Shown here in pieces: positions 5,901-43,000 of a stretch of 64,000 bases of DNA. Source of the DNA: Caenorhabditis elegans (taxonomy: Eukaryota; Nematoda; Chromadorea; Rhabditida; Rhabditidae); assembly GCF_000002985.6 (NCBI RefSeq), contig NC_003280.10, positions 5,328,501 to 5,392,500 on the forward strand, given 5' to 3'. A program made the translations under genes and the position numbers. Below the pieces are notes generated by a model, which was not told the DNA's origin, did no database searches, and worked only from the letters and a program-made list of their open reading frames with translations. Each line of letters opens with the position of its first letter. Position 1 is the first letter of the stretch.

Positions 5901-8900
5901 TCGTTGAGCCACAAACAAACATAAAGCCTCTCTTTTTCATGGTCAAAGACCAACACTCTCAAATTTTGATATCTATTTTTGAATTGTTTAGTAAACAACG
6001 TGAAATTCATATTGCTCTGTATTTCAGCTCGACGATAACTGCTTAATTCATCAATTGATGAGCTGCTCGTCAGGTTGCACAAAAATGGATGAGAAGCTTG
6101 ATTTAGTTTTATACGCAGAAGAAGATAAGCCACGTGGAAACAAGAGACGGTAATACTTTTTTTCAAGTGATTTCATAGTTAACCTCTATACTTTCAGAAT
6201 CGCGTCGTGTAATGCTCCAGAATCCACTGCAAAAATCATGCGAGTTCTGAGAGAACGACTCGAGGACACTGACAAATTTCGAAGCGTCATGGTTCTTGAA
6301 GGTAAGCTTTCTTAGAATTTCTGATAGTATTCTCTGACATGTCACGTCTAGTTTACAAGTTTACAAGCGAGAAACATGTCATGCGGATTTGATTCTGACA
6401 CATCATGTCAAAAACTGAGAGTCCCAGTGTGTGTGGCTTAGAGCTCTTCACATGGTGGCCTTCTTTCAAATGTTTAGTCAAATTGAGTTGACTTGTATTG
6501 TGATTAAAAGTGTGTGTGTAATGTTTGAACTCTTTTGTGTGACTTGCCAGTGACTAATGATAGATTAGAGTGAGATTTTTGATTCTAGATTTGGGATTTT
6601 AGATTTTTTGCTCAAAAACCAAAAATTGTAGTGCCAAGTATTCAGATCTAAGAACTCACGTATTCGCTTCCTGGTTTAATTTTTAATTTTTAATACTTGT
6701 TGATCGGATATCTAGGTACATAATGTTCAGCTCTGAAATTAAATCAAAGCCCCTTATTCTCTCCCTTTTCTTTTTTTTTTTCTTGCTAATGACATTAGGG
6801 CAAAAAAAGGCAATCCTTCTCCTGCTTCTCAACGAGAAGGATGCTGTTTCTTTTCCACTTCCAATTCTTTGCTTTATTCTCCATTTTCTCCCCCCATTCG
6901 TTTTCAGCATTCAATTTTTGCTACTCTTCTCTGATTTGCACTCTTCCTCCTCCTCCTCTTCTAGTTTCAGATAATCCCTTCTAGATTTATCATCTTTTTT
7001 TCTTTTTTTCATAAGCTTCTCATGATATGAGCAACACGTTTCGCGCGGTGCCAAGCACCATAATTAGAGTGTCGTGTGTGTGTGTATGTGAGTGAATGAG
7101 TAAGTGAGAGAGTGTGCTGTGATTTAAGCACATTGATCATACTCCAACGGCCTTTTCAATTCTAAAACAGTATGACTCATAATCCGAGAGCTCAAAGAGC
7201 ATGAATACGTGATTAGACTAATCAAATGTGTGAATACTGAGAAACATTGCAAGTTTTGCAATACCAATTCTAATCTTTTTTTTTCAAATTTTGAGTCACT
7301 TTTCTCTGGAAAAATGATTGCAAACCGGTATTTCACACGTCTGCAAAAATTTCAACATTTTTCTGATTGGTAATAATAGTTTGTAGATAGATAGGTTAAT
7401 GATATTTTTCAATGAAACAAGTAGTTTTCAAGTCAGGGTATTTGAGTCAGAGAGATGATCACACACTTTTCAATGCAAAATGCTCTTTTTCTTGCCATCT
7501 TGCACATACACACAAAGCTCTTCTGACTCATACTCTCTCTTTTTTCCCTTTCCTTTTTCTCCCACCGCTCTATCCTATTGATCATAAAAGGCCGAAATGA
7601 CGACGGCAGGGTGGACGTCTTCTATGTTCTTTCCCTCATCCACACATACTATTTCGAGAAGTCCTCTAACAATCTGCGGTACCTTCTAGGCTTATGTCCT
7701 CCCCCGTCCAACTCCTCCCACTTCTTCCACTCCTTCTGAATACTTCCAAACGAGCCCCGCTATAGTGCTGTGCTCAGTGGACCCTCCAAGTTGCCAAATT
7801 TTTCAAATGGGTGGTCAACCGTTTGAGGCGTTCCGTAAGAATCGCAAACGAAAGAAGACGAAAAATAAGAAGAAACGAAGAAATAACAATAATTCAAAGA
7901 ACAAAACTCCCAACACTTTTCCTAATGAAATTGAAGAGCAAGACCCCGTATCATCACTTCCGACATTCCCAGCTAAAAAATTTGGACTAAAACTTCAACT
8001 TACTCTCACTTCTTCTCCTACTAACTCATCTAGTCCTATTTCGAGTTCTTCACCAACCAATGGTACGTTTTAAATTCTTCGTATTAAAAATCAAATCAAT
8101 ATAAAATTAAATGTGTGATAAGAAGAGGAAAGAGTCGCTTTCAATACAATCTTTGTCGTCGACATACTAATTTTCATATTCTATTGTGACTCATTTTTGT
8201 TTTCAATATTTGTCCCTCCTATCGCCTACTTTGTTTTCAGTTTTCAGCCTTCATTTCACCCCCACTATTTTCAGAATTCCATGATCTCATACTGCGCACT
8301 TTCATAGATTCTTAGAATCATATTTCTTGATAACAACAAAAAGTTCATTCATCATGCTTTTTAGTGTTTACAATAACTTATGATTAAGTGATAGAACAAC
8401 TAGATATATACCTAACATACCTGAACAAGTTTGAGAGAAGGGGTGAAAGAGGCAAAAAAATTGGAATGCGACATTGTCATCGATGAGTCACTTCGTCAAT
8501 AGCGGCGCCCGATGGTGGGGGAGAGAGATCGAGAGATGGTGAGACGGATGACGCACAGTGAGATAGAATATGAAACCATGAGAGCATATAGAGAAATAAG
8601 AGAGCAGAAAAACACAATAAGTGTGTGTGAGTGTGTCATCGAGAGAGAGGCGGGAAAACGAAAAACCACCTGTGGGATAGAGGTGAAAAAAGAGAAAAAA
8701 AAGTGAAGAAGAAAATAGTTTCTATCTCCTCCTACTTTTCTGTTCACATCGATACTGAAACCTATTCCTCATTTATTCTTAATTGAATTAGAAGAATGAA
8801 AACAATGAAGTCAATATCTAATACTTTTTTCTGTTTCTCGATTTTCCTGATAAAGCTTCTAACTGATAAGAAACCAACGTCGGGGCAGCTTTTCCTCAAT

Positions 8901-11747: not shown

Positions 11748-14357
11748 TTTTGTGAACATCATTCTCTAGTCCACACATAAGTTTCTTCAAATTGAAGAAG
11801 AACTATGAAAAATGATTGAAAATTCTTTATTTCAATCAGAACCATTTTTCATCCATCTCTCCCAACATCATTACTCTCATTACAATATGTGATAATTGTA
11901 TCCCCTTCATCAATCCATCCCACTTCACCCCCTCTCCACATTTTTAAAGTGTCGACGGGTACTGTGTGCTCTTGATTTTGAGCCCTGACCCCCTTCCCCA
12001 AGTTCTTCTTCATGAAAAGCAATATTTGAACTCGTGATGTTCGATTCTTTCCGTTTCTTTTTTATTTTTTTTTATTTTTTATATCTTGAATCCATTAGAG
12101 TATCCCAATTTTATCAACCATGTTACTTTATTTGACATTACATTTTTTGTATATAACCCGGCAAATTTCATTTATTTATACCATTCAACCCCACCAACCA
12201 AAACATCACCCCCAATTTTTCATTTTTAAACCTCTACTGATTCTGGTCTAGCCTGACGTACCACACATTTAATTATGTGGAATTGAAAGAATAATTCAAT
12301 TAATAATAATGAAAAAAGTTTTTTTTTGACATTTATGTTGAGTTGATTACAAAGTAAAAATTTCAGAGAAGAGGAACCTTGGAAACCTGAAATGTTTTAC
12401 AAAAATGCAGACTAGATTACACAAAATTACAATACACAGCTTTGAGATGACACAAAGAAAAACGTATTAAGAATACTTTCTTTTTGATTAGAAACTTCAT
12501 ACAACTTTTGACAAAAAATGGTTCAAAACGAAAAAGGAAAAAAATCTGGTAGTTTTTTTTCCAGAAATGTGAACTTTATAATGGCTTCCATCAACTCTTT
12601 AAATTATTCTCCGCGATTGCCAAAAATGTTGGTCTGCCTTCAAGGCAGCCTACGTGTGCCTACTCGCAGCACTTGCACTTGCAGTACTTGCAGTATCAGC
12701 ATTTTCGCTAATTTGCCAGTCAGTTTAGTGAAAAGTTAATTGAAATTGGAAACTTTTGAATAAATTTTAAATCAGATTTTCGGGAACATCCCACAGTTAA
12801 ATTACAGTTTTTATCAGAAATCTCGGGTCCTTTATGCGCACTTCGCAAATCAGCTAGGTAGGTAGGTAGGCCCGTAGGCATGAAACGTTCCAGCATACAA
12901 TGTAATTTTACGCCGCTCTAGGATGGAATGGTTTTAATATTTTGCGGTACTTTCTCTGTTTTAAATCATCAATATACTTTTATTGCTTCTCAACTCACAA
13001 CTTCATACATCTGTGCAAAAATTCCAGATAATGTACATATGTGCCCCAAACGTCATTTTCATATTTTCAAAGATCCTGACTAGTTTTCACCGATTTTTTA
13101 TTATAGTTTCAAACAATCCAACCTACAACCTGACACTACGAAAAAGTTTGAATGATCTACAATGACTCATTTCTAATCCGAATCATTCGAATCAAAATCT
13201 TTTATTCCATCACAAACTACGTAGCTACGTCACAAATCTGATCAGTTGCTGATTAGACAAACGAGTTTATCACTAACTTCTTTTTCAGTAGAATTACACC
13301 AATTGCAGGTAAAATGTTTCAGGATTATTGAAGAAGGGCGTGACGAAATTCAATATTTTGATTTTTGAATTGCGGGGGAAAAAGTGATGATAGCTGTCAC
13401 AAAACATAGTTGAACATAACAATGGAAAGACTAATGTCGAATTTTTATTAAGTTTTGAAAAGAAAAAAGTTAAACAGGGCCTGAAGCGGTAGCGGTCACT
13501 TTGTTCGCCTTTACGGCGAGGCTTGTCAGAAACACAAGAAGGCATTTTTTGCCGGTTTCAAAGAATACAAAATATTTTTCCAACTATTATTATACAATTT
13601 TAATACTGGCTGGGCGGCTCTAGGGCGCCTCCGCGAAAAGCTTTAAATCTAAATAAGTTGCAAAAAGTAATCTATGAAATTTACATCTCAGGTTATTTGC
13701 AGCGTCTCAGTGAGCACGATGGCTCCATATCGATAGAGAATCGGCAACTCATACTCACGGGAACTGTCAAAACAAGCCAGACTCATAAGTCTTTCCGAAA
13801 CTTGTTCAAGAAAAATATAATTTTTATTTCACTACGATAATCGATAGTTCAATTAGAAGATTTTCGAAGATCGGTGATCATTTCTTCTCGTTTTTTTCTG
13901 ATTTTTCACAAAAAATTGTTGATTCAATCCGCCGAACAGCAACTCAAATGACTCATGACCCAAATCAACAAATCAGATCAATCAATGTGTATCAGTGATC
14001 TACGTACTTACGTCACCGAAAGACAATTGTTCAGTTGTTGATGATGACCATCATCATGACATACGTTCTGTGACTTCTATTTTATTCCACTCATCAAAAA
14101 TCGCCTCACACCTTGCTAAACCCCCGCGTTAACCCTTTCGGAACCCATGTCACATGTTTTTTGTGGTAACACACATTTTATTTTGGAGTGATGGACTGTT
14201 GTTCGAGAGCAGAATGTAAAAATAATGAAAATTAGAAAATGGCGTTAATGTTGTTACACACAATTAAACAGAATCTCTGAATCCCTCTTTGATCTTTTTG
14301 TGCGGCACGTGTTGGTGGAAGTGTTTGGACGATGAAGATGTATTTTAGATGAAAGTG
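11748..14357. other. intergenic region between vhp-1 and a secreted-peptide gene
   Basis: About 2.6 kb with no exon I can support. It includes the vhp-1 3' UTR at its left end, where a T-rich stretch lies at 12055-12085. A TAGG/CAGG-type repeat pair occurs at about 12630-12660 and 12855-12880. The remaining sequence is AT-rich with only short, unsupported open frames. Confidence 0.5.
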
Positions 14358-16352
14358 TTATCCAAGTCGTTGAAGATTTGATAAACGACCATGTGAGTCT
14401 ATTTCTGTGAATGCTTCTGGACCAAGAAGCTGTTGGAGTCGAGCCATTACCAGTTCTTTTTGATCTCCACTGAAAAATTATTATTTTTTAATTTAAAACT
14501 TCTTGTAAGTCAGAAAGTATCTTCAAAAAGTAACAGTGAAAATACAGAAGAAAAAAATCATTGACTATATTTTTCCATGACTACCTGTGCCCCTTGCCGA
14601 ATCATTTTCATTTTTGTTCATGAGAATTTCAGCTGAACTATGTATTTTCAAACTGGCGTATCTTGAAAAATATACGTCCAGGAAAAAAATGTTCAGCAAA
14701 CAAACTGATCGGAAATATTTTTCCTTTCTTTTGTATTGCGTTTCATTACAAAATATTAATTATTTGTTGAGTTACACAGAGTCAAACCCATTTTACCAAA
14801 ATCCTCCAAAAATTTTGAAAACTTTTCTGTTGTACCAGTTATAATCTAACAACCATTGAATTTCAAAAGAAAATAATTGTTGAATAGTAACTAGAAAATA
14901 TTTAGCTACATTTTATCAGTTTCAAGTTTTTTGATAACTTTGTCTTTTGCCAAGTTACAGGCCGTTTTCTGAAAAAATCCAATTTTGTCCATAAAACTCT
15001 TCATATCCATCGTAACAACTTGGAATTTGGACGAAACATCGCAATTTTTGGTGCTCTATCAGATTCCATCAAAAAAATTTCAAAAATCCTGTTAATCTCC
15101 AAAATCGTCCTCCGCTCCGAAAAATGAAATCGGGTGTTTGCCTTTCGGAAAATGGCCAAAAAAATGAAATTGGGATATTGGGGTCGAAAAATATATTTTT
15201 AGAAAGCTGAGAACACGTTATTTACGAATTTCATATTCATTTTTGATGAAATATCGTTTGAAATGACCTAAAAATTAAAGCAAAAAGCCGATTTTTATTC
15301 TCACGTGAAAATTGTTCTCTTAAAAACAACAGGAAAATTGATAAGTTTGTTTTTGGGGAAGAACAATTTTCACGTGAGAATCGAAATGAGCTTTTTGTTT
15401 TAATTATTAGGTCATTTGAAGCTACAATTCATCAAAAATGAATATGAAATTAGTAAATAACGTGTTCTCAGCTTTCTAAAAATATATTTTTCGACCCCAA
15501 TATCCCAATTTCATTTGTTTTGGTCATTTTCCGAAAGGCAAACACCCGATTTCATTTTTCGGAGCGGAGGACGATTTTGGAGATTAACAGGATTTTTGAA
15601 ATTTTTTTGATGGAATCTGATAGAGCACCAAAAAGTGCGATGTTTCGTTCAAATTTCAAGTTGTTACGATGGATATGAAGAGTTTTATGGACAAAATTGG
15701 ATTTTTTCAGAAAACGGCCTGTAACTTGGCAAATGACAAAGTTATCAAAAAACTTGAAACTGATAAAATGTAGCTAAATATTTTCTAGTTACTATGCAAC
15801 AATTTTTTCTTCAGAAATTCATTGGTTGATGGATTAGAAATGGTACAACAGAGAACTTCCCAAAAATTTTGATGGTTTTTGATAAATTGGCTTTGACTCT
15901 GTGTAACTCAACAAATAATTGGTATTTTTTGATGAAAAGTAATACAAATGAAAGAAAAAATATTTCTGATCAGTTTGTTACTTTATCATTTATTTCCTGG
16001 ACGTATATTTTTCAAGATATGTCTGTTTGAAAAAACGCAATTGAGCGAGTTTAGGAAGTTATTTGGTCTTCTCAGCGTGATGTACCTACAGTCTCTCACT
16101 TCTTTCCCTATACTTTTTATTTTCTTGAAGTTATCATGAACAAAAATGAAAACGAGTTGATATTGAGAAAAGGTCGTCAATAATTCTGGAGTCAATACTT
16201 ATTTTCCAGCAAAAGAGGACTCACTTGGCTCTTTTATAAACAAATCTTGGATCTTCTATCATTGTCAGATCGGCTCGTTCAAATGGACCACCGTACACTA
16301 CGTGGCAGCACACAATCAACAAAAGGAAGAGAATCGCAATGCAGGAACGCAT
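14358..16352 (-). CDS. small secreted protein, candidate amidated neuropeptide precursor
   Basis: Two exons, 16352-16225 and 14469-14358, join in phase to a 79-residue protein. Residues 1-21 are a clear signal peptide (MRSC, a hydrophobic Leu/Ile/Val core, then VVYG). A dibasic Lys-Arg pair lies at 40-41. The protein ends in ...LQRLG followed directly by the stop, so prohormone cleavage after 41 and use of the final Gly as amide donor would give an amidated peptide of about 37 residues. No cysteines follow the signal peptide. I do not recognise the family. The start was chosen because it is the only ATG giving a signal peptide, although the frame stays open further upstream. The single intron (1.75 kb) is filled by a large palindromic repeat. 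Secretion is well supported; the neuropeptide role is inferred. Confidence 0.7.
14630..16050. repeat. large near-perfect palindrome (foldback element)
   Basis: The arms (about 14630-15315 and 15360-16050) are reverse complements over roughly 690 bp with scattered mismatches. For example, the block around 14985-15080 is repeated inverted at 15615-15700, and the segment ending in TATACGTCCAGG near 14680 reappears inverted near 16005. The spacer is about 45 bp. No transposase frame is present, which suggests a non-autonomous foldback DNA element. It lies entirely in the intron of the 79-residue secreted-peptide gene. I cannot name the family. Confidence 0.85.
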
Positions 16353-18050: not shown

Positions 18051-18783
18051 GAGGGGGTACGTTTTCGTAAGGGGATTTTTTCGTAAGGAACGCTTTCAGT
18101 AGGGCAATGTGCGGCGCGCCTTTTCGCAAGCCCGCCGCACAGTCCTTCGCAATGCGCCGCACGGCTTTTTGCAATGCGCCGCACGCTTCTTCGTATTTAT
18201 TTATTTATTTTTCCAACAGGAAATTTCGAACGGAATTCAATTAAAAACGGATTTTTAATGGAAATTAATTAGTTTTATTCGAGCTAAATACGGATATTTT
18301 CAGAATTTTCGATGACAAAAACGGGTTTCATTCGATTTCGAATCGATCAAAATTAATATTAATCGAAAATGAGCGTTTCCTTCCCGGAAAAAAGAAGAAC
18401 TTGATGCTGAGAGTGATCCAAGCGGAGCCAAACGCTTTTTTAGAGGCAAGTATTGATGTCTAAAGATTAATTGAAGAGTGAAAAGTATTTTTCAGCGTTC
18501 GACAGGGATCTAAAGAAGAAAAGAAATCCGAAAGCGTCTACTACAAATGTATGTGAATCGACTCCTGCAACAATCGATCTGGTTACTCCACCTGCATCAC
18601 CACGTCGGTCTGATTCGTATATGCAGTTTCCTTCAAATTCTCGAGAGCTCGATGAGCCGAGATCCACTGACGATATCCCGGAATGCGATTCAATAGCCAA
18701 TTCTACTCAGGAAACAAGCTTGGATACAACAGATTCCATGGCAAATACTGAAAGATTTTTTGATTTTTATCCAGCTGTATTTC
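18051..18783. repeat. left terminal inverted repeat of the MULE
   Basis: 733 bp, reverse complement of 21370-22102. The outer 130 bp hold GC-rich GCGCCGCAC motifs. The inner part contains, in plus orientation, a copy of the 5' coding exons of the transposase gene, so the gene's start is embedded in the inverted repeat. Confidence 0.88.
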
Positions 18784-19083
18784 GCCGCACAGTCCTTCGC
18801 AATGCGCCGCACGGCTTTTTGCAATGCGCCGCACGCTTCTTCGTATTTATTTATTTATTTTTCCAACAGGAAATTTCGAACGGAATTCAATTAAAAACGG
18901 ATTTTTAATGGAAATTAATTAGTTTTATTCGAGCTAAATACGGATATTTTCAGAATTTTCGATGACAAAAACGGGTTTCAATCGATTTCGAATCGATCAA
19001 AATTAATATTAATCGAAAATGAGCGTTTCCTTCCCGGAAAAAGAAGAACTTGATGCTGAGAGTGATCCAGGCGGAGCCAAACG
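18783..19083. repeat. direct duplication of subterminal repeat sequence inside the MULE
   Basis: This 301-bp block repeats 18133-18434 in direct orientation, starting at CGCCGCACAGTCC and ending at GGAGCCAAACG. It differs by a few substitutions and by one fewer A in a poly-A run (five here, six in both terminal repeats). The five-A version keeps the presumed first transposase exon in frame; the six-A versions do not. Confidence 0.8.
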
Positions 19084-19248
19084 ATTAAAATGATAGAAGT
19101 GATTTTTTATTCAGTCGAAATGGAAAATAAAACTGCAAACAAAAGTTAATTCGATTAAATTAAGTAAGAAAAATCATGGCGAAATTTGGATAACCTGAGT
19201 ATGGAAAATTGTTTCTATAATCTAATGGCACAGAGGTAAACAAAGAGA

Positions 19249-21784
19249 TCAGTGATAGCATTTCGGAATTTCCATAAAAGGGAAAAGTTTCTCATTAAAA
19301 GCACTGAAACCGGTATAATTCAAAAACACTGAAGTACAGAAATCGGGGTTTTTGTATAATGGCACAGCGGTTGTTCGATTTCCGGATCGTCTCTTCAAGT
19401 CTAGGATCAATGATTTTGATAGTTGAATGGTCTTTTGAATCACTCCTCGCAGGTTTTGATAGTCGTTGTGATGATACATTCTCTGGAAAACAAAACAAAT
19501 CGATATTATATACCTATTTGAGAACTTAAAAAACTACAAAAAGAAACTTGCCTTCAGCTTGGAAAATTGCTGCTCACTCGGGTTGTTTGTGAACTCTAAT
19601 CCGTTTCGAACCCTCTCTTTACAGTTCCAAAAATCAACGGGATATCGAGCATCTTCTCCAAAATAGAATTTTTCGAGGTAGCTGAAGAAATCTGAAAAAC
19701 GAGAATAATTGATTTCATGACAAGATTTTTCAAACCTTTCAATGCTGGATGAATATTAACTGTTCAACATTTCAGAAGACGGAGCCAAAGAAGTACTTTG
19801 TCGTGTGGAGCAAAACTGAGAGTATAAATCGATTTTAAAAGATTCACGAATTCCGGCTTATTGATATCGTCTCCAACAGCTGAAATTTTGAATTAGGTTA
19901 GCAGCATTAAATATTTAGGTTTACCTTTTCGCAGATTTTTAAAAAGATTCACTTTGAAGTGACGCCAACATCCGAAAATGTCCGCATTCGGCCACACAGC
20001 TCTGCTCGCATTAACACTGGCCACTTCAAAGTCTGGATAGGTTGATAAATTTAATAAATATAACCAACGTTTACCTGAAAATACGTATTTTGGTTGGATT
20101 CCACTACGTAGGAAAGATAGGAACAAACGTCTGTACAAATCTTCTTTGGCAGAGCCACACAAAGCAAAAACCAATGGAACTGCCACGTTCGTATCGAGAT
20201 CCTGCAATGTCATTGGTTGACATCAAAATACCTTTCAATTAATACGCACCGTGACTGTTGCGATGTAAAGCTGTCGATAATTTTTCGGAATTTCTGAGAA
20301 TTTCCCATCCAAATGCAAGCTGTGCGCACCATACAAAGATTCAGCTTCCTCTGCTTGCCACACAACTAGCAAATCCTTATTAGACTCAAACGTTCCAGAA
20401 CTGTCTAAACAACATTTTCCTCCTTTAAAATAGGCAGAATCGAGGGCTGGTGGAAAACTATTCGTCGATTTCCTACTCAGCATACCGTCCAGTATGCGAC
20501 TGATTTCTTTCTGGAAAAAGTATATGTTTTATTGATTCCACGATTTATTATTTACGTTGCTCTTGAGAAGTTCAACAACTTCATATCTTTTTGAAAGTGT
20601 AACAGCAAGCTCATAAAGGCGTTCTTTTGATGGTGAAGAAGACATTGATGAAACTGCGATTTTTCTCATAATTAATTGCACCTAAAATATAAATTTAGTT
20701 TTGAAAAACGTAAATTTCAGTATACTGCAATTTCGCTTCTCCTCGATTCGTGATCACAATCACGACTGACTTTCACATGGCCTGTCTCAGTCTTGATACG
20801 CACGGATCCGGGGCACTTTCTCGAGTTTTCCAGTGTAACGTTACATCTGAAATAAATTAATGAAATGTGTGACAATTTTTTCCTAGCGATAATTCACCTA
20901 GCCACAATGTCCCCATTTTTCAGTGTTTCTCTCGGACGATAGCTTTGATTGTTGAAAATGACCAATGGAGCTCCTCGTTTCGTCGAAATACTGAAATTGC
21001 ATAGTTTCTATGTTTAATTGTTTTAGAAGTTAGAAGGCATACCAAAAATCTGAACTATTCTCGCTGATATATTCCGGTGCCATTTCAAGCACCCCTCTTG
21101 GGCTATTGGCAATCGGTCTATAGTGCATCAGAGAACGTAACACGTGTGACTTGCTGGAATTTTATATTTTGATAGAGTTATTGATTAATAACAACCTATT
21201 TGTCAAAAACCAATCCGGATGGTATGGAGTCTCTTCGTCTTCAAACGGAGATTGATATGAATTGTGACCTAAAAATACAACGTCTGTTATTTCTATTTAA
21301 TTATTAGTTAAGACCTACACAGAAGATTGAATTCACTTGTTTCCTGTAGATCGTGATCCATTTCTTCGGGAAATACAGCTGGATAAAAATCAAAAAATCT
21401 TTCAGTATTTGCCATGGAATCTGTTGTATCCAAGCTTGTTTCCTGAGTAGAATTGGCTATTGAATCGCATTCCGGGATATCGTCAGTGGATCTCGGCTCA
21501 TCGAGCTCTCGAGAATTTGAAGGAAACTGCATATACGAATCAGACCGACGTGGTGATGCAGGTGGAGTAACCAGATCGATTGTTGCAGGAGTCGATTCAC
21601 ATACATTTGTAGTAGACGCTTTCGGATTTCTTTTCTTCTTTAGATCCCTGTCGAACGCTGAAAAATACTTTTCACTCTTCAATTAATCTTTAGACATCAA
21701 TACTTGCCTCTAAAAAAGCGTTTGGCTCCGCTTGGATCACTCTCAGCATCAAGTTCTTCTTTTTTCCGGGAAGGAAACGCTCAT
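19249..21784 (-). pseudogene. FLYWCH/MULE transposase gene, disrupted
   Basis: Exon-like blocks joined by consensus splice sites run from 21784 to 19249. In order: a Ser/Thr-rich N-terminal region (21657 to about 21315), a FLYWCH-type zinc finger (about 21000-20720, with TKRGAPLVIF, RETLKNGDIVAR and a CNVT...KCPG...DCDH ligand pattern), and a MULE transposase core. The core has the DGKF motif near 20315, PLVFALCGS, DFEVASVNA, and a GCWRHF Cys/His motif near 19965. A C-terminal FWN...FTNNPSEQ block follows near 19600. Two lesions are visible: an extra A frameshifts the first exon after about ten codons, and an in-frame TGA interrupts the frame near 19775. Two introns would use GC donors. Alternative starts or splicing might bypass the lesions, but as read the copy looks non-functional. 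Confidence 0.75.
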
Positions 21785-22102
21785 TTTCGATTAATATTAA
21801 TTTTGATCGATTCGAAATCGAATGAAACCCGTTTTTGTCATCGAAAATTCTGAAAATATCCGTATTTAGCTCGAATAAAACTAATTAATTTCCATTAAAA
21901 ATCCGTTTTTAATTGAATTCCGTTCGAAATTTCCTGTTGGAAAAATAAATAAATAAATACGAAGAAGCGTGCGGCGCATTGCAAAAAGCCGTGCGGCGCA
22001 TTGCGAAGGACTGTGCGGCGGGCTTGCGAAAAGGCGCGCCGCACATTGCCCTACTGAAAGCGTTCCTTACGAAAAAATCCCCTTACGAAAACGTACCCCC
22101 TC
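21370..22102. repeat. right terminal inverted repeat of the MULE
   Basis: 733 bp, the partner of 18051-18783. It carries the start (minus) of the transposase gene, including the presumed first exon (21784-21708) and most of the second (from 21657). Confidence 0.88.
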
Positions 22103-31060: not shown

Positions 31061-34000
31061 ATGGACGTTGATGTGGAAGAGGCGGCATTGGAGCAAGTAG
31101 CAGCTCTACTACAACGTCCTGATCAACTGGAAAAATTGCCGGAACTCAAAAAGAGAGCTGATAGAAAGAAGGTAAAACTAATAAATTCTTCCAAGTTTAT
31201 TGAAGTGTGAAAAATTAAAAAATTTCAGCTCGCTGTCGAGGCTATGCTCCGAACTGGTGTTCAAGGTCAATTAGAAGGAATTCGAACTGCAATTGCTCAT
31301 CTTCAAACCGCTTCAGATGATATTACCGCTATTTCTCAAGGGTATTTATTTTAAATTCACTTTAACGAAACATTTTTTTGATTTTCAGAGTTCACGATAT
31401 TCGAGAGCGTCTCGGACCATTTCCCCAACTGAAAGAGAAACTTCGAGAACTTCGTGATGCCAATGCTCGTCACGGTCAATATGCAGCTGCAATGGAGAAT
31501 TTGAAGCATATTTTCAATCTACAAACAACACTTCAAGAAATTCGTGATGCGCTGGATGATGAAAAGTCTGGAGGAAATCTGTTGTTAGCTCACAAACATA
31601 TTATGGATTTGGAAAGAGCTCGAGACGAATTGCTGGCCGAAGTTCATAAAATGAGTGGAACAAATACGGAAAAAGAGCAAATGGTTATTTGTTTTTTTTT
31701 TTGTATTTTCCAAATATTTATAATATTATTTTTCAGCTTCTCGTCAATTTCTTCAAGGGAGTTGACTCGGTTGTCGCCGAATTGTCGAAGAATATGTGGT
31801 TTATTCTCGGTCGAACTTTGGAAATGGTTAAGGTAATTTTTTTATTCGAATATATATTGATATGGTTTAAATATCAACTGAATAAAAAAGTTAAAAAAAA
31901 AAGAATTATCGAATTTTCTCGCCGATTTCAGCGAATTTTTTTTGTTATTTTGATCCGAAAAATTAAAAAAAAAAAGAATTTTTTTGTCCTCCAAAACCTT
32001 GTAATAAAGTTAAAACAATTGCGAGCGGTCACTGTAGATTTGAATCTCTGAGAAAACATCTGGTTTTACGACATTTTGCAGGAAAGTGAATTTCAGAATA
32101 ATTCAAAATTCTAAAGTTGGATAAACATTTTAAAAATTCATTTTCGTCCTGGAAACCTGCCTGAACTATTATTTTTCAGGGAAATGAGCAAGGTGGCGGA
32201 CCGCAACAAGTTGTGACATGTCTTCGAATTGTGGAACGAGAAGAAAGGTAATAATTTCATGAGTTGTCGTGATCAGGGCTATTGCAAAAAGATATTCTAC
32301 CAAAACAAGAAAATTTTATTTTAAATTTGGACCAAAAGACAAAAAATCGAATTTATGAAGAAAAAAAAACTACTTTTGATTTTAAACGGGACACAACGAG
32401 AAATTTTCAAAAATGTTAGAACCTGAACGAACGGAAGGATTTTTGTTTTCTTTTTGTGTTTTGCTGAATCAGTGTTGTAATTTTTCGGTTTTTTTTGGTC
32501 CCAAAAAATATTTTTTTTTCCCAAAAAACCGACAGCCCTGGATGTGATAACAAAGTTATATTTATTTAAGAATCGATAAATTCTACATGGAAGCTCGAAG
32601 CAAGAACTCATCGGCATTTGTTCCACCAGGCCGACCTCGTAACTGGAAAGAAAAAGCCTTACGATCACTTGAGAAGACTGTCTCAAATCGAGTAGATGGA
32701 AATCAACTCGAAGATCGATCTCTGAACAAAGCGTGGCTTGCTAGATATTTAGAAGTTTGTAAAAATGTAATTATGGATGATTTACAATTGGCAAAAGTGG
32801 CGATTCCGTGTTTCCCACCGGATTGGCAGATTTACGATCGATATGTTCACATGTATCACACATCTGTGTGTAGAAGAGTGAGTATTTGACTGAAAAAATC
32901 GATTGTTTCCTCATTTCCTTGCTTTTAGCTCCGAGAAGTGGCATCGGAACATTTGGAAAAAAGCGAGCTGGTTCAGTTGATGTCATGGATCAAATTTTAC
33001 GCATCTGAAGATATGCTAGGACATCCGAAACTGAGGATCAATGCACAGGCTATATTACAAGATAGTCCTGTTCTGTCGAGAAGCACTCTGAATCAACTTT
33101 GTGATCAATTTGTTGAAATGTCGAGAGATGATCTGAAATTATGGCTGAAAAATACTGTTTCTCATGAGACTCATGTAAGTTTTATTTTTTTTTTTTAATT
33201 CTGTCTTGAAATTTTCAAATCATCAACAAAAAAAAGACTGAATGATAGAAAAAAACCGTAATAGTCAAAAAAAAACTTTAAAATTTTTAATTAAAAAAAA
33301 ATCTATTTAGTTTCGACATTTTGTTTTTTCTGTTGAAATGTTCAGTTTTCATTGATTTTTTCGTTAATATTTGATTCGAAATGTCAAAAAAAAAATTTCA
33401 GACATTTTTCCGAAGAGAAAACTTGATTTCTCGTAAGAAAATTACTAAAACTTAAAATTGGCTCAGAAATTAAAAATTAAAAAATTTTATAATTTTTCTT
33501 TGTTGAAAAATGTCTGAAAATCTGACAAAAAATGTTGCAAATCAAATATCTATGAAAATGTCAAGAAAGTTCGATGAATTTAGCTAGAAAACGCGAAAAT
33601 GTCGAAACTAGGTAATTAATTTGCGCGGGAATTCAAAAATAAAATCTATAATTCAAAATATAATTTTTCGTACAAAGTAATAAAAGTAAATTTTCTACAA
33701 AATTATTTATTCCAGGATTGGTACAAAAACTTGCGGCCAAGCGAGGACAATCATGGATATTTCTACACTGATCTGCCAAATACTGTTTTTGGAATGCTCA
33801 AGGACACGGTAAGTTTTTTTTCAAAATATTTGTAATTTCCGCTAGTAGAAACTAAGAAATTTCCTTTCAAATCCAAAAAAAAATGCCGAGGAATTTAAAA
33901 AGCCCGAGAAAAGAACGCACACATATTATTAGCAGCTTTTGCATACCCTCTCCGAGTTGGTTTTTTTTCTAATTTCGCAAAATTTGTAATTCCGCGTCGT

Positions 34001-37000
34001 AGTTCGCTTCACGTCACCATCATCACCACCTCTTGTCGAAATTCACCACGAAAGACGAAAAAAAAGACAAATGTGAGCGTTGTATATCTATTTTCAAGTG
34101 TCAGAGAAAGAATTATTTGTTTACACATGGTATTTCACGTGAAGTACACACGGAGGACGAGTGATTGAGCTAATAATGAAGATAAATCAGGAAAAAAAGA
34201 AACGTCAGATGATCACATATATTGTCTCCGAGATGATAGGCTTGATCAAGGAATTGTCTGGAGAACTTCCTGAAAGGGCAGACAAGTTTGAATAGTGATA
34301 AGGAATTCCTTTTATAAACTCGAATACCAAGTTTTAGAAACAGTTACGAAAATTCATATTTGAATGAAAATTCGAAATTTTTAATGAATATTTTAGTGTC
34401 GTCTAGACCCCCTTACTTCCTTTTTTCGAAGGTTTCTTCTACAATTTAATTATATTAAGCTAGCTCATGAGTAATTTGTCGTGGCGACCTATTCTGTTTG
34501 TAGTTTATTTGTATGCAGAAGACATTTTAAATGTCGTAGTGTGATTATACAAATTTTCGTACTTGTATTTGGTGTGTATAGACGAAAATTATGAAAATAT
34601 AGATGTGAAATGAGATTAAGTTTTTTTCAGAATTCTCGGGGAAATCCCCAAAAATTTGAACTCGTTCATATTCGTTTTGCGAGAAAAAGAAACAGCAACA
34701 CCCTTTAAGCGGTGTCGATTTACGAATAACTAAATGAATCAGGATTTCCCCTTTCTCACAACTCCCCCACACACATATGCACAAATACAACTATATCTTA
34801 TTCATCATCATCATCAGTGGGTGGTTACAGCCCAAAGAACCTCGACAATTGAATTAGCACCATCTAGAATACGCAGAAATGGGTCTTCGTCGTTTTCTTA
34901 TTCCATTTTTCGTTAGTTTCTCGAAAAGTTATCCTATTGGTCGGTTTTCAGCTTTTCGGGTCAGTTCTTCGTTCGCTTTCGCTCTTAAATGTTCGACTTC
35001 CGCCTGGAAGCAGCTCGCCGGGCTCCAGGAGCTGAAGCTAAATGAGGGCGAATATTGGTGGAAAATGACGCCACTTCTTTGTTTCTCTTTTTGAAAGCAA
35101 TAATTAGTAGTGGAGAAGTGAACAAGTGTGTTGTTCCTTCTTTCTTTAGATGAAAAAAATGCAAAAGTCCTACGCACTATTCATCATAGTATCTGAAGCT
35201 TTAAAGCTTAATTAAGGAAGTAAACCCTGTCGAAATATAAGAACGCTCCTTTCTTTTCTATTGTTTTGTATGAGATGGTCGTTTTGGAGCAATTTGAGAT
35301 CAAACGGCACCAAAATAATTCATGAAAGGCAAAATTTCTAAAAGAATGCTGGGTTATAGCCGAGATGAACAGAATATTGAAATAATATGAAGAAAATTGT
35401 TCTCATGTCAAAATATATACACAATAGACTAAATTTGGTCGGACAAACTAAAAAAATGCAAATTTTTTGGTTAGTTGCCAATACCAAATACCGAAAAACG
35501 TATCCATGAAGTACTTTTGGAATATTTTACTTTTTTTTATTTGGTAGATACTCTAATAAAATTTTTCCGCGCAATCATTTCCTTTTACGCAATTTTAGAT
35601 TTACTAGAACATATTTTCAAAGTTGTACCAAAATTTTACACACCTGTTATAATAAGTTGTGTTCTAAACTAAAACGTAAAGTCTCCAGGTTACTGTAATT
35701 GTATGAGAACCCCCGTTCCCAATATAATTAGCATAGGAAAACATGTCAACGTGAGGGTACTCTCGTAATCTGAACGAAATCTAGAAATATCCATTACAAT
35801 TGAATCATTCTCTGATGATCTACGTGAGAATCTTGATAGTTTTTTATGTTGCACATTGTGAAAATTCACATTTTGCATTCTGATGGGAGGTGGGTACGTG
35901 GTGACGTGACTTTGAACTCTTGGCAAATTGTTTTGAAAAAACGATGCCCCATCGTACGAAAGAAGGTCTCAACAATACATCTTCATTTATTTTCAAAAAG
36001 GAAAAAACGATTTGTGTTTTATTGTGGTCATTCTCGGATCTTCAAGAATTATTTTCTTTATCACCATTATATTTTTTAGTGAAAACAGAAAGAGGGGTGT
36101 GCACGAGCTTTTTTAAAAAAGGTTTAAATATCCCAATTGGTGTCTTTTCATGGTTGAAAAATATGAAATTACATTATGCGAATGAAATGACAACGAATCA
36201 ATACATATAATGTATAGAAGGATGGTTAGTAGAATTTAAGATAGTAGAATAGACAAATTTAGGTATGCATGTGAACCGATGAAATATAGTCAAAGAGGCT
36301 GATGGAATGGAGAAGAGTTAGAGTTATGGCAAAGGGTTTTTTGTCGACATCGACGTGTTGTGGTGTTTTTTTTTCGAATTTTGGACCGGGAGTTTGTCAA
36401 AAAAGGAGGAAAATTACAAGAACATTAGAGCCAATTAGATCTTATTCCTAGACGCTAAACTTTTGTGGCTGTGATGGATGGAGTGGAAGAGACTAGAATC
36501 AACTGATTTATTCGATGTATGATCGGAGAGCAGGTGGAAGAGGTTGTATGTCATTGATTTCTACTTTGTCATGCAATGATAGGTGCAAACCTTGTGCAGA
36601 CACGGACATGCATAGCTTCCAGCAGATCGTCGTCGCATCACTGATCCTGAAATTATAGAGTTGTTTTAATCGAGCTTCTTCCAAGGTCTAAATTGACCAA
36701 AATCTACAGTTTCCAAGTTTGGAAATGATAACTGACAAAGCTTTAATGCTTTTAAAGCTTCTTCTCAAATTCCTGCTTGAAAGACATACCCCGGCTTGAC
36801 GATGCCCTTTTTGCTTCCATCATTGCTTCTTCTGGATCTACTAACAAATCTCCATCTGATGCCAATTGCTTCGCTACAACCTGATCGGCAACTTCTAGAG
36901 CCATGATACGATCATTGGCTTGAGGGAAGAACTGAAATACGGATATTACTATATGAATAGCATTAGCTCAAAATTTAATTATTACAACTGACACGACTAT

Positions 37001-40000
37001 CGTTGTGTTTTTTGAGCTAATAATATGATGCCAGAATTTCAAATTAGCAATTTCTATACCAAGAAGAGTCAAGACACAAAATGTGCTCCAAAGAATGAGT
37101 TCAGAGAACCTACCAAATAGAAGCCGTTGACAATTGGCATCGAAACAAGAAGACACATTAAGATTACTGTAGCCACCGATGTGTTCATATTTTTCAGAAA
37201 AGCTGGTTCCGTCTTCGTGTTCTGAAGAGGAGAAATAGAAATAATGCAGCGTTTTGTTAGAGAAGAGCGTCCAAGAAAATGGGCGGGGCCTCCTCCCTCC
37301 TAATGCGGAGCAGATAAGTGGGTGGAGTCGTTTGCAAAGAACACCTTCTACTTTTTCTCAGGGTGGCGGGAAATTGAATGAAAAATGGGATGAGAGAAAG
37401 AAAAGAGAGAACAAAATTTGCAGAGTTTCAAAATTGGAAGGACACAATTGAATTCAATGAATGAGTGAATTGAATTGAAATAGTGACGAGATAAAGAGAA
37501 GCAAAATGAAAAGAAGTTGGTGTTCGAATATCTAAAACTTGGACTCCATCAACTGAAAGAGTAAGGGGCAGACAACAATTTTCTAAATTTACCTGCCTAT
37601 TGTTAGGTTTCAAACTTTGCTCTAATATCCTTCAGTGAACAGGAATGAGCAGGACGATTTGGTTACTGTAATTGAAACTCAATTCATGAGTTTCAATTTT
37701 CAAAATAAAATTTCAAAATGTCAGAATTAATCTAAATCAGTTATGGATCGTCGGCGGAATAAGATATCAAATGTCTAGTACGATTCTGCAAAAATGCAAA
37801 AATAAACCAGAAGAGAAAAGTGCCGCCGACAAAAAACGTTGAAAGATTCGCATTTATAATCTGCTTAATGGAATAACTCTCTCGCTTGGACACGGTGACG
37901 AGTCGTTGGTGTTGTCGTTAGTGATTCTGGAGCACAAAGTGCAGGAGACAACAGGAAAAAGTCAAGAGGGACGGATGTTGCACATATACACACAACATGA
38001 CACCAATACGAGGATTCGTCATTCATTTTTCAACCCGCCGACGTGTCCGTCTTCATCTCTCATTAGTTGCATTGACTCGGATTTCGGCTCAGAAGGATGT
38101 AGAAAATGCAACTGAATGATCTTAAAATGAGTACTATCTTTTTGAACGAATCATCTATTTGCACCTTAATTTTTAGATGACGTCAACAAAATTGGAAATA
38201 AATGTAATTTGCCGGAAATTCAAAGGTTTCAATGAGCAATTTTGAAATTTGAAGCAAAATTTATAGTACTATGGTTAAAAACCAATAATATACCGATTTG
38301 CTAATTTCGGAAACTATCGGTTACTGTAGATTCTACATACGCAAACGAATAATCCAATGTTGCTAATCTCTACCAGAAACAAAGAGTAAGAAGAAACAGC
38401 AAGAAGCAAAATGAGAAGAATCCAATTTCCTCGAAAGGATTGGGCTCGGTTTTCTAGGTTTCTCTACCGAAAAGAAAATGGAATTTCGATACTTTTTGCT
38501 CACTGTTTTTAAATCAGATGAGTTTCACAAAAAAAAGTTAAACGAATCGAAGTCCTATGAAAGAGAAACTTTCTGGACTCCACCAACTTTGAACAGCTTG
38601 GCAAAGTTTGTAAAGAGACGTAAGACCAAAATAGGTGAAGTGCGTGGGGTCTCGAGACTCTGCAGAAGATTTTTGAAAAAAGGGTCTTGAACCGAAAAAC
38701 TGCGATGAGAGCTCTCACGCCTGGATTAGGAAAGAGAAAGGTCTCATAGCAGCAAGTCCTAAGATCTCTTTATGTTAACATATGGAAAACATGAACATCG
38801 AACATTTGAAATTCAAGAATTCAAGCAAATTTTAATCCGAATGGTTAATATGTAACAAACAGAATTGATCACATATTGTGTTGAACAGATGTAAGGTTTC
38901 TCTTGGAACTATCAACAAAATAACATTCAGCATTAAAAGCTCTTCAAATGTGATAGGGTAATTCAGACCAATGAAGTTCAACTAGATTTATCTGTGCAAA
39001 CTCTAGAGTTGATGACAAAGCAGAATATGGAATTATTCACCATGAGAAAACCCCTACTCGAACTTTATCAATTTTTCAGCTCGACAGATTCTCGTTATGA
39101 GAAATGTTTCTCATCGTTCAAAAATTCATACGACCTGGATGAACTCTTTCCGGAACTTAGACGCATTTTTTACTAGAGAAATGTAAAAATATATTTCATT
39201 TCTGTTTTCGTTCTGAGCTACCTGGAATAGCTGAATTCAGACAATAGATTCGGAAGGAATTAATATTTATTCAGTTGGACATTAATTTAGAAGCAGAACA
39301 AACTGATATAAAAAAGAATCGTGTGCGTTAAAAAAGGAAGCAATTCAAAATGAGAGACAGCGGGAAATATAATGATAGTTGTCGAAGATCTGATAGTTAT
39401 TGAATAAGAAGTATTTTTAATTATTGCCGTCATTTTAGTAATTAATTTAGAGATGGATGCAGCTGCATCATATATGCGTAGGGGGGAAGTAGGTGCTGAA
39501 CTTCGGGGTTTTCCCGGTCATTTGGACGTGGGCGACGTGGAAAGCTGTATGGACTGTTGTAGTAGAGTGTTGGATGTCCCGTCCAGTGATCTCGGTTTGG
39601 TGGTAATGGGATTGGACGCCGAGGAAGGTCATTTTGTTGGCGAGCCAAGGCTGGTGATCTTGCTGCAATTGGAATCGGTGGTTCAGCAGCTTCTTGCTCG
39701 TCCGAAGTGGTAGAATATGTCGGTGATACTGGAGAGTAGGCTGGAGAAGGTGGTGAAAACGATGGACTTCTCATACTATTATCCGAACCAGCGTTCGATG
39801 AGACAGAGTTTCTTCCATCTGGATCTTCTGGTTCATCATCATCTTTCTCGACGTCTATTTCAACATCCTCGTCATCTTCATTTTCACGTTGTGCCTAAAA
39901 CTCGTGCATTGAAAATTGTCAGAATTTTTAATTTCTTGTAATCTTACCGGTGCTGGACGAGGAACAGGCATGTTCTGTAGATTTTGGTGTGGTGGAATAT

Positions 40001-43000
40001 AGTGTGCAATACCTTGACTGACAACCGCCACTGGAGCAGGTTGACCAGCTAATAAGTTGCCTGAAAATCAGAATAATTTGTTTTCCGAGTGATCACTTCA
40101 CTTATACTCACCAATATTCGCTGGATGGGATGGCTCGTAGTATTTCAAATAACCACCAGATACCAAAAAATTCCAAGTATATGGTTCGATATACACCCGT
40201 CCTGCCAAAAAGTCCACTATAATATCACGCATTGCTTTTGTTGCATTCATTTGTAAAAGGATTCTCTGAGACAATCGGCGTGGAAATGGAAAATAGCCGT
40301 CGTTGCTCTGATGTCGTTGAATTTGTAACATTTCGGTGCGTCCAAGAAAAGTGAGCAATTGAAAGTCGCCTGAGGTACACGACAAGGCTGGGTCCTGAAG
40401 TTTAAAAATATTGGTATTTTGAAAATATTGGCTTTCTTTATCGTATAACATCTCAAATTTTCACACTAGGAATAGGGAAATACATCTTCCAAAATCTACA
40501 GTAATCTCACCATAATCTTCCTGATTAGATACTCTCCTCCATTTCCTTGACCAGGAAATCCAATTAGAAGAACCTCGTACAATGTCTCTGATGGCACCAT
40601 CTGAAGACATTATTCAAATTATTTAATTTCAGGTGACATTGGCAAAGGAGGTATCAGTTGAAGTTATTCCTAGCATCATCAACTTGACGATTCAAGAATT
40701 CAATGAGTTGGCAGGAAAATATAGAGGTTAGAGCAAAAAATTCACTAGTTTGAAGAAAAAAAAATCAATTTTTCAGATGCATTCACTGCTTACAAGACGG
40801 ATTATTTTGCGGAGAGGAGCAAGTATCAAGAGTTTACTTCTAATATTGTGAGTTTGATTTCCAAAATATTCTAGACAACATTTTTTGAAAAAGTGATATT
40901 GCCATAATGCGAAATAATTGTGAGACTTTACTACGGTCTTGGCACGAAAAAATGCTAAAAATGCCGTAATCTCCATGTCTCAGTGTTTCTAAATTGTTTC
41001 TATACTTTTTTCTATGATTTTTATATAACTTTTTTAAAAAATTATTTCCACAAAAATAACCTCGTTTTCAAGAAAATCAACTAGAAAAAATCGAAGAAAA
41101 ATCCAAAAAAGTTATGTCTGGGGACTACTGTACTTTTTAAAGGCGCATGCCATTTTCCTTTACATTTCGGGTTGAGGACGGTGCCGTATTTTTTATGAAA
41201 AACTCGCAAAAAAAAAAACCAAATTTTTTTGAAATTTCCTAACCTTTTGAAAAAAAAAATTATAAACTATCTACATATCTTTAAAATAACCAATTTTTTT
41301 CAAAAAACAGATTGCAATCGCCAACAATCTTCACACTTGCATCGAATCAACTGAAAAGTATAAGCAACAAATTCGTTTATCAATGGAAGGAGAACAAAAC
41401 GCGGCGGCTGCTATGACAACGCCACTCGCATCAGGACGACGTACTGCTGTTAGACAACAGCAACTCATCGAGAATATGGACGCTTTAAATACGAAATGGA
41501 GTAATGCAGCTTCAGTAGCGTAAGCGAGGGGTTTAAAGCCAGATTTGAGAGCGGAAAAATGATATCTGATAAGAAAAGTTGAGGTTTTGTAGTCTAACAA
41601 AAACGAATATCATAATAGAACACTTCAAAAATTTCAAATCTGTATGCCAAAATTTACGCTAATCAAAAAAATTTCAAAAATTTTGAGCAATGTTGCAACT
41701 ACTACAATGTCCAAATATAAATTATTGAAAAATTTTGGTTAATTTCACACAAAATGGGATATTTTTAAATCACACGAATTTTGCTAAACATTACAATTCG
41801 ATGTCTTCTTCCAATTATTAAAATTCTAAATTTATGGTTGAAAAGTCATTTTAAAAGTTTTGCAAAAAATATTGCTATTATAGAGACATCTAAATAACAA
41901 TTATCTAGTGACGTATAACTATTATTTATAATTAGAAATTGTTCATCATAGACGGAAGAATATGTACTTTGAAACCTGCACTTTTATTTTTAAAAATAAT
42001 TTTAAAAAAGCAAAACCAACAAAAACAAAATCTCAAATTGTTCGTTGTGTCGCCACGAATATTTATGCAAAATCAATAGCACTCACACGAAACAGCTCTT
42101 TTTTGGAGAGGGCGCAGAACCAACAGATGCCAGTATACCCTCTGTGCTGTTTGATGACCACAAATTTCTATTGGAAATTGACCGGACTAGAGAGATTAAT
42201 ATAGCATTGGAAAAGTTGAATTTTGGTTCATTGGACTGGAGGTGAACATTTCAAAAAAAAAATTACTATTGCCGAGACGCGAAGTTTTCGTTCAAAAACT
42301 ACGGTATCGGGTCTCGACACGATTTTTATTTTATATAAACGCGTCTTGCAAGAGTACTGTAGCTCTTCAAGATTTCCCACAATTTATGTGATTCTAATTT
42401 GTTTTATTCTAGTTTTTTCTAAAATTAATCAATATATTTTTTGCGAAAAATATAAAAAGTCGATGAAAATTGCGAAGAAACGAAAGTTTGAAATTACAGT
42501 ACTCTTTCAAGTCGCACAGCTTTTCGCATTGAACAAAAATTGAAAATTGTGTCGAGACCGGCTACCGTATTTTTGGTACAAAAATCGCGAAATTTCGCGC
42601 CTGTGTATAAGCAGATAGGATAGGGGTTTCGTGTTTATGAATTTAGCGTTTTTTTTTCACCAAATTAAAATAATTCAATTTCAGAGTAAACTATCTCCGA
42701 GAAGAAGTCATCACAGATATTGCTCCAAGTCTCGTTGAAATCTTCTCGAAAAAATGGTTAACCGGAAGTGCTGCTCTCGAGACAGTTTGTATGACTATTT
42801 CCGATTATTACCACGATCACAAGCATCTGCGACCAGTCACAAGGTCCACTTTGCTTATGGATCTTCAATTTAGAATTGTTAGCGAATATTTGAAGGCAAT
42901 CGAAACAAAGTAAGTAGCATTTAATTTGGATTTTTTTTTCTCAAAACACCAATATTTCAGGCGAGTGAGTCTCAATTCGTATGAAGAGCGTGCACTTGCA

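Follow-up and report, generated by a model that had tools for sequence, protein, structure and literature searches.

What does the small minus-strand gene encode that lies antisense within an intron of the exocyst gene sec-6 in Caenorhabditis elegans? The question is raised by a 64,000-nucleotide (nt) stretch of chromosome II (contig NC_003280.10 of assembly GCF_000002985.6, positions 5,328,501 to 5,392,500 of the forward strand), referred to here as the window and numbered from its first letter. The nested gene almost certainly exists as a genuine gene. As the best explanation of its product we favour, as probable, a preprohormone that would release a two-disulphide, neuropeptide- or hormone-like peptide from a gene that is single-copy as far as was searched.

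Between 37188 and 36561 on the minus strand, three exons of 75, 142 and 86 nt (chromosome II 5365061-5365688) splice in frame to give a 303-nt coding sequence for 100 amino acids, and exon 3 ends with the TAG stop codon (Table 1). Both introns have GT...AG boundaries, the first being 182 nt long and in phase 0 and the second 143 nt and in phase 1, and the GC content of the exons (0.40-0.49) exceeds that of the introns (0.32-0.33). Upstream of the ATG the frame stays open to a stop at 37302, with no further ATG in between. An acceptor-like site at 37221 (6.1 bits) ranks second among the AG sites in 37100-37700 and could receive a spliced leader, which would leave a 5' untranslated region (UTR) of 33 nt. 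The plus-strand exons that flank the gene match the Sec6 family of the exocyst, and the host intron that encloses it is 6.8 kb in length; antisense genes nested in long introns are common in worms. A further minus-strand gene model (40600-39442, four exons, 312 residues) is nested in the same sec-6 intron; its C-terminal part is proline- and acid-rich, and it matched no Pfam family with an expectation value (E) of 1 or less.

The precursor consists, in order, of a hydrophobic start, an acidic segment, Lys-Arg (KR, residues 66-67), nine residues, Arg-Arg-Arg (RRR, residues 77-79) and a 21-residue tail. Cysteines at residues 86, 88, 93 and 97 of the tail form the pattern C-x-C-x4-C-x3-C, and the stop follows three residues past the last of them. 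The best 12-residue hydropathy at the N-terminus is 2.77, a value on a hydropathy scale and not from a signal-peptide predictor, and was equalled by none of 56 ATG-led noncoding stretches. Residues 23-65 carry nine aspartates and glutamates against two lysines and arginines, and four cysteines in 21 residues have a probability of 0.0007 by composition if 2% of residues are cysteine. A sequence-only reading of this DNA had proposed three phase-matched exons in antisense orientation within sec-6, encoding an acidic pro-region, dibasic and tribasic cleavage sites and a short C-terminal peptide with this cysteine pattern; its splice junctions were reproduced exactly, and the other elements are all in place.

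Coding potential was scored by log-odds of codon use, with 1696 codons from the window's other genes as the training set and 122 stop-free noncoding stretches of at least 47 codons for comparison. The whole coding sequence scores 0.22 bit/codon and exon 2 more (Table 1), against a noncoding maximum of 0.10; by segment, the signal reaches 0.39 bit/codon in residues 23-66 versus 0.14 in the cysteine tail. Much of this score reflects amino-acid composition, and the small synonymous-codon component (4.6 bits over 92 codons) is a weak point of the evidence for the gene. A dynamic-programming gene finder, its splice profiles built on ten introns of Sec6, was applied to 36400-37320 with intron costs of -6, -9, -12 and -14. 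At -12 and -14 it returned exactly the three-exon model; at -9 the three exon starts were kept and an extra intron from 36590 deleted the last two cysteines, and at -6 two extra introns were inserted. Dinucleotide shuffles matched the real score in 0 of 200 cases at each of -9, -12 and -14 and in 1 of 100 at -6. Presumed-noncoding chunks did so in 0 of 56 cases at the three stricter costs and in 3 of 62 at -6, the smaller set differing in that it omits 19000-21000 and cuts 12500-16000 back to 15800. The three matching chunks lie at 19460 and 19920 (minus strand) and at 5981 (plus strand); the last, which fell within 0.1, 0.2 and 2.2 bits of the real score at the stricter costs, may itself contain a real gene.

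A worm neuropeptide gene can be recognized by a signal peptide together with basic cleavage sites that adjoin a short peptide, the criteria used in PMC9881375, and in the nested gene KR and RRR precede the 21-residue tail. With the Caenorhabditis nlp genes, a class defined by layout and not by homology, it shares a small precursor, a signal-like sequence, basic cleavage sites and a short peptide predicted to be released. The precursor would enter the secretory pathway by way of its signal-like N-terminus, and the signal would then be cleaved. A convertase of the furin or PC2 type would cut after RRR, and also after KR, and the tail would be oxidised to form two disulphides and released as a neuropeptide or hormone, its most likely target being a G-protein-coupled receptor. 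The final lysine of the tail might be removed by a carboxypeptidase. The calculated monoisotopic mass of the tail with two disulphides is 2297.95 Da, or about 2169.86 Da once that lysine is subtracted. Worm precursors are processed by egl-3 (convertase) and egl-21 (carboxypeptidase) (PMC10077061). Of this scheme the layout of the sequence is what was observed, and we infer secretion, cleavage, disulphide formation and release from that layout and from worm neuropeptide biology.

No Pfam family scored above its cut-off with the precursor, exon 3 or the tail. Endothelins have their cysteines in the order C-x-C and then C-x3-C, as the tail does, and two disulphides as are predicted for it, but their middle spacer is seven residues long and that of the tail is four, so that the spacing C-x-C-x7-C-x3-C fails. 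The length of 21 residues is likewise that of endothelins and sarafotoxins (PMC8859281). With E limited to 10, the endothelin profile (PF00322) was not among the matches listed for the precursor, for exon 3 or for the tail, in searches where the HMMER filters remove most hits weaker than about 0.1, and none of its eight genome-wide matches exceeded the cut-off or lay at the nested-gene locus. Membership of the endothelin family was rejected for want of a profile match at this locus or, above the cut-off, anywhere in the genome.

The best Pfam match was to the cystine-stabilised (CS) alpha/beta toxins (PF14866), at 16.8 bits for the precursor, 19.3 for exon 3 and 17.4 for the tail against a cut-off of 27 (E 0.0015 to 0.0086), and in the PDB it was to a potassium-channel toxin, the beta-KTx TcoKIK (7lgl), with E 0.14 when the precursor was the query and 0.015 when the tail was. 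The likeness to these scorpion long-chain toxins is confined to a short stretch in which a cysteine and a later C-x3-C are in register. CS-alpha/beta toxins have at least six cysteines, a helix plus beta hairpin, and a C-x-C that follows the C-x3-C, whereas the tail has only four, lacks a C-x-C in that position and stops three residues after the last. Since an unrelated second place in the genome reached 17 bits with PF14866, in a search where the nested-gene locus was not among the scored candidates, the likeness is read as background; membership of this toxin family was rejected on that ground and on the scores below the cut-off. In cystine-stabilised helix peptides a helix lies across C-x3-C and two disulphides join it to C-x-C. 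An AlphaFold model of exon 3 alone contains no helix and is too poor to weigh either way (mean predicted local distance difference test, pLDDT, 55.1; predicted template modelling score, pTM, 0.22). Of the interpretation offered by the sequence-only reading, a secreted, convertase-processed precursor stands as the best account of the sequence, and the statement that endothelin-type peptides have a longer middle spacer than the tail holds, but the compact two-disulphide fold that it proposed gained no support from this model.

Allatostatin-C-like precursors of worms (nlp-55, -62, -64, -66, -67, -71, -79 and -88 to -91) also yield cysteine-bearing peptides, and nlp-88 to nlp-91 carry the motif RNCFF(S/T)P(V/A)QC (PMC8764417). 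The nested-gene tail differs in lacking this motif, or any of the NCFF type, by reading.

Several points weigh against a hormone precursor of this kind. The tail ends in lysine and lacks the C-terminal glycine by which many worm neuropeptides are amidated. As regards transcript, peptide and orthologue, the putative precursor is known from genomic sequence alone. The AlphaFold model of exon 3 is uninformative, the codon signal of the cysteine tail is low, the donor of intron 1 is weak, and the looser intron costs (-6 and -9) lead the gene finder to drop the last two cysteines.

The main functional rival is a secreted defence peptide, in which the cationic cysteine tail would act on microbes and not on a receptor. 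A calculated isoelectric point (pI) of 8.5 for the tail versus 4.1 for residues 23-65 is a charge-masking layout that agrees with such a role, as does the sub-threshold likeness to CS-alpha/beta peptides, but only two of the 21 tail residues are basic and no family was matched above cut-off in Pfam, or at all in NCBIfam, a prokaryote library. Worm defence-peptide genes are often clustered, whereas one copy was found here, and we consider this reading unlikely. It is likewise unlikely that the product is truly secreted but that its working part is residues 23-65, with the cysteine tail serving only for folding or sorting. The strongest codon signal does fall in that segment; against this, precursors commonly contain acidic spacers, and a tail so rich in cysteine is improbable by composition.

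A further alternative keeps the gene and changes its 3' splicing, which would make the four-cysteine pattern wrong. The intron that the gene finder adds at costs of -6 and -9 (36590-36493) would leave two cysteines in the tail; however, its donor begins GTTTGC, the gene finder no longer chooses it at -12 and -14, and the contiguous reading reaches a stop with AATAAA downstream, so that this splicing is highly improbable. That there is no gene, and that the frames are open merely by chance within an intron, is scarcely credible, for although the gene is known here from the genome sequence only, and at the loosest cost some shuffles and presumed-noncoding chunks score as high, no shuffle or chunk did so at any of the three stricter costs, no noncoding stretch equalled the codon score, and exons exceed introns in GC content.

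Table 1. Features of the nested gene and its host intron (window positions; splice-site scores are given, where two values appear, as score/maximum of the profile)
Feature	Position	Strand	Basis
Probable 5' UTR after acceptor/trans-splice site (tttctcctcttcag/AACACG)	37189..37221	-	Acceptor 6.12 bits
Exon 1: ATG, signal-like residues 1-22, FYL	37114..37188	-	In-frame splicing; hydropathy
Intron 1, phase 0	36932..37113	-	GT...AG; donor 2.9/11.6 bits, acceptor 7.4/10.7
Exon 2: acidic pro-region, KR (residues 66-67)	36790..36931	-	0.35 bit/codon
Intron 2, phase 1	36647..36789	-	GT...AG; donor 7.0/11.6, acceptor 10.7/10.7 bits
Exon 3: RRR (residues 77-79), C-terminal peptide SAGSYACPCLHKVCTYHCMTK, stop	36561..36646	-	Translation of spliced frame
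AATAAA polyadenylation-like signal, downstream of stop	36507..36512	-	Sequence match
Host intron of Sec6 (exocyst) gene, opposite strand to nested gene	33809..40632	+	Exon chain; PF06046 E 6.6e-61

Returning to the favoured hormone precursor, the gene looks single-copy: DNA and protein searches of its own genome gave no paralogues, although queries of 21 to 24 residues have low power and only the best candidates were scored. Pattern matches in viral contigs (18) and prokaryote genomes (519) were in no case confirmed; worms are not expected in either collection, so these searches are silent on conservation. Ten precursor strings of 7-12 residues were absent from the main texts of the literature searched, supplements and gene databases lying outside that search. 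Among the F09E5 gene numbers searched in the literature, likewise excluding supplements and some numbers, none is the nested gene in the excerpts available: F09E5.4 appears in a receptor list (PMC10670001), and texts with F09E5.13 concern DERA, prdx-2 and agt-2 (PMC3561212; PMC6499797).

An annotated gene model probably exists, because this genome has been so closely studied, and the nested gene may already carry a name. The nlp genes of linkage group II, among those listed in one strain table, are nlp-5, -11, -18, -41, -50, -51, -55, -63, -77 and -78 (PMC10077061). Four published quantitative PCR primers for nlp-50 and nlp-41 (PMC12803089) do not occur in the window as uninterrupted strings, which makes these two unlikely candidates, and nlp-55 counts among the allatostatin-C-like genes (PMC8764417); the name could be that of nlp-51, -63, -77 or -78, or of others. 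An unlikely reading makes the tail the ligand of an orphan receptor and the first representative of a family of nematode peptide hormones, which would share a compact two-disulphide fold built on C-x-C-x4-C-x3-C. To our knowledge, such a fold would be tighter than that of any cystine-stabilised helix peptide.

To the right of sec-6 lie genes for DeoC, a glycosyltransferase, a peroxiredoxin and a protein kinase, and the gene content of the window matches the F09E5 genes of C. elegans. F09E5.3 (deoxyribose-phosphate aldolase) and F09E5.15 (prdx-2) are neighbours on one fosmid (PMC3561212; for prdx-2 also PMC4232591), and F09E5.1 corresponds to pkc-3, which encodes an atypical protein kinase C (PMC3887533). 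Scanning the 64-kb window for Rfam families and tRNAs gave no hits. Elsewhere, a 43-residue minus-strand frame at 16221-16352 has a strongly hydrophobic start and KR near its end, with no Pfam match of E 1 or less and no convincing continuation from the gene finder; it may encode a further secreted peptide or be the first exon of one. An inverted repeat at 18353-18783 / 21370-21800 has arms of at least 431 nt that are 100% complementary and 2586 nt apart. One open frame recurs in both 431-nt arms (at 18471-18908 on the plus strand and at 21308-21682 on the minus strand), and the identity of the arms together with the shared frame suggests a recent-looking inverted duplication. Nested inverted repeats occupy 14929-15750, with arms at 14929-15164/15515-15750 (97%) and 15158-15318/15360-15520 (92%); as scanned to 15750, they jointly form one long palindrome that resembles a foldback mobile element.

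The nested gene is of an ordinary kind, since worms have more than 100 such precursors, and several worm receptors are still without ligands. If expressed and processed as read here, it would place one more disulphide-bonded ligand, with a defined mass and sequence, on the list of worm peptides.

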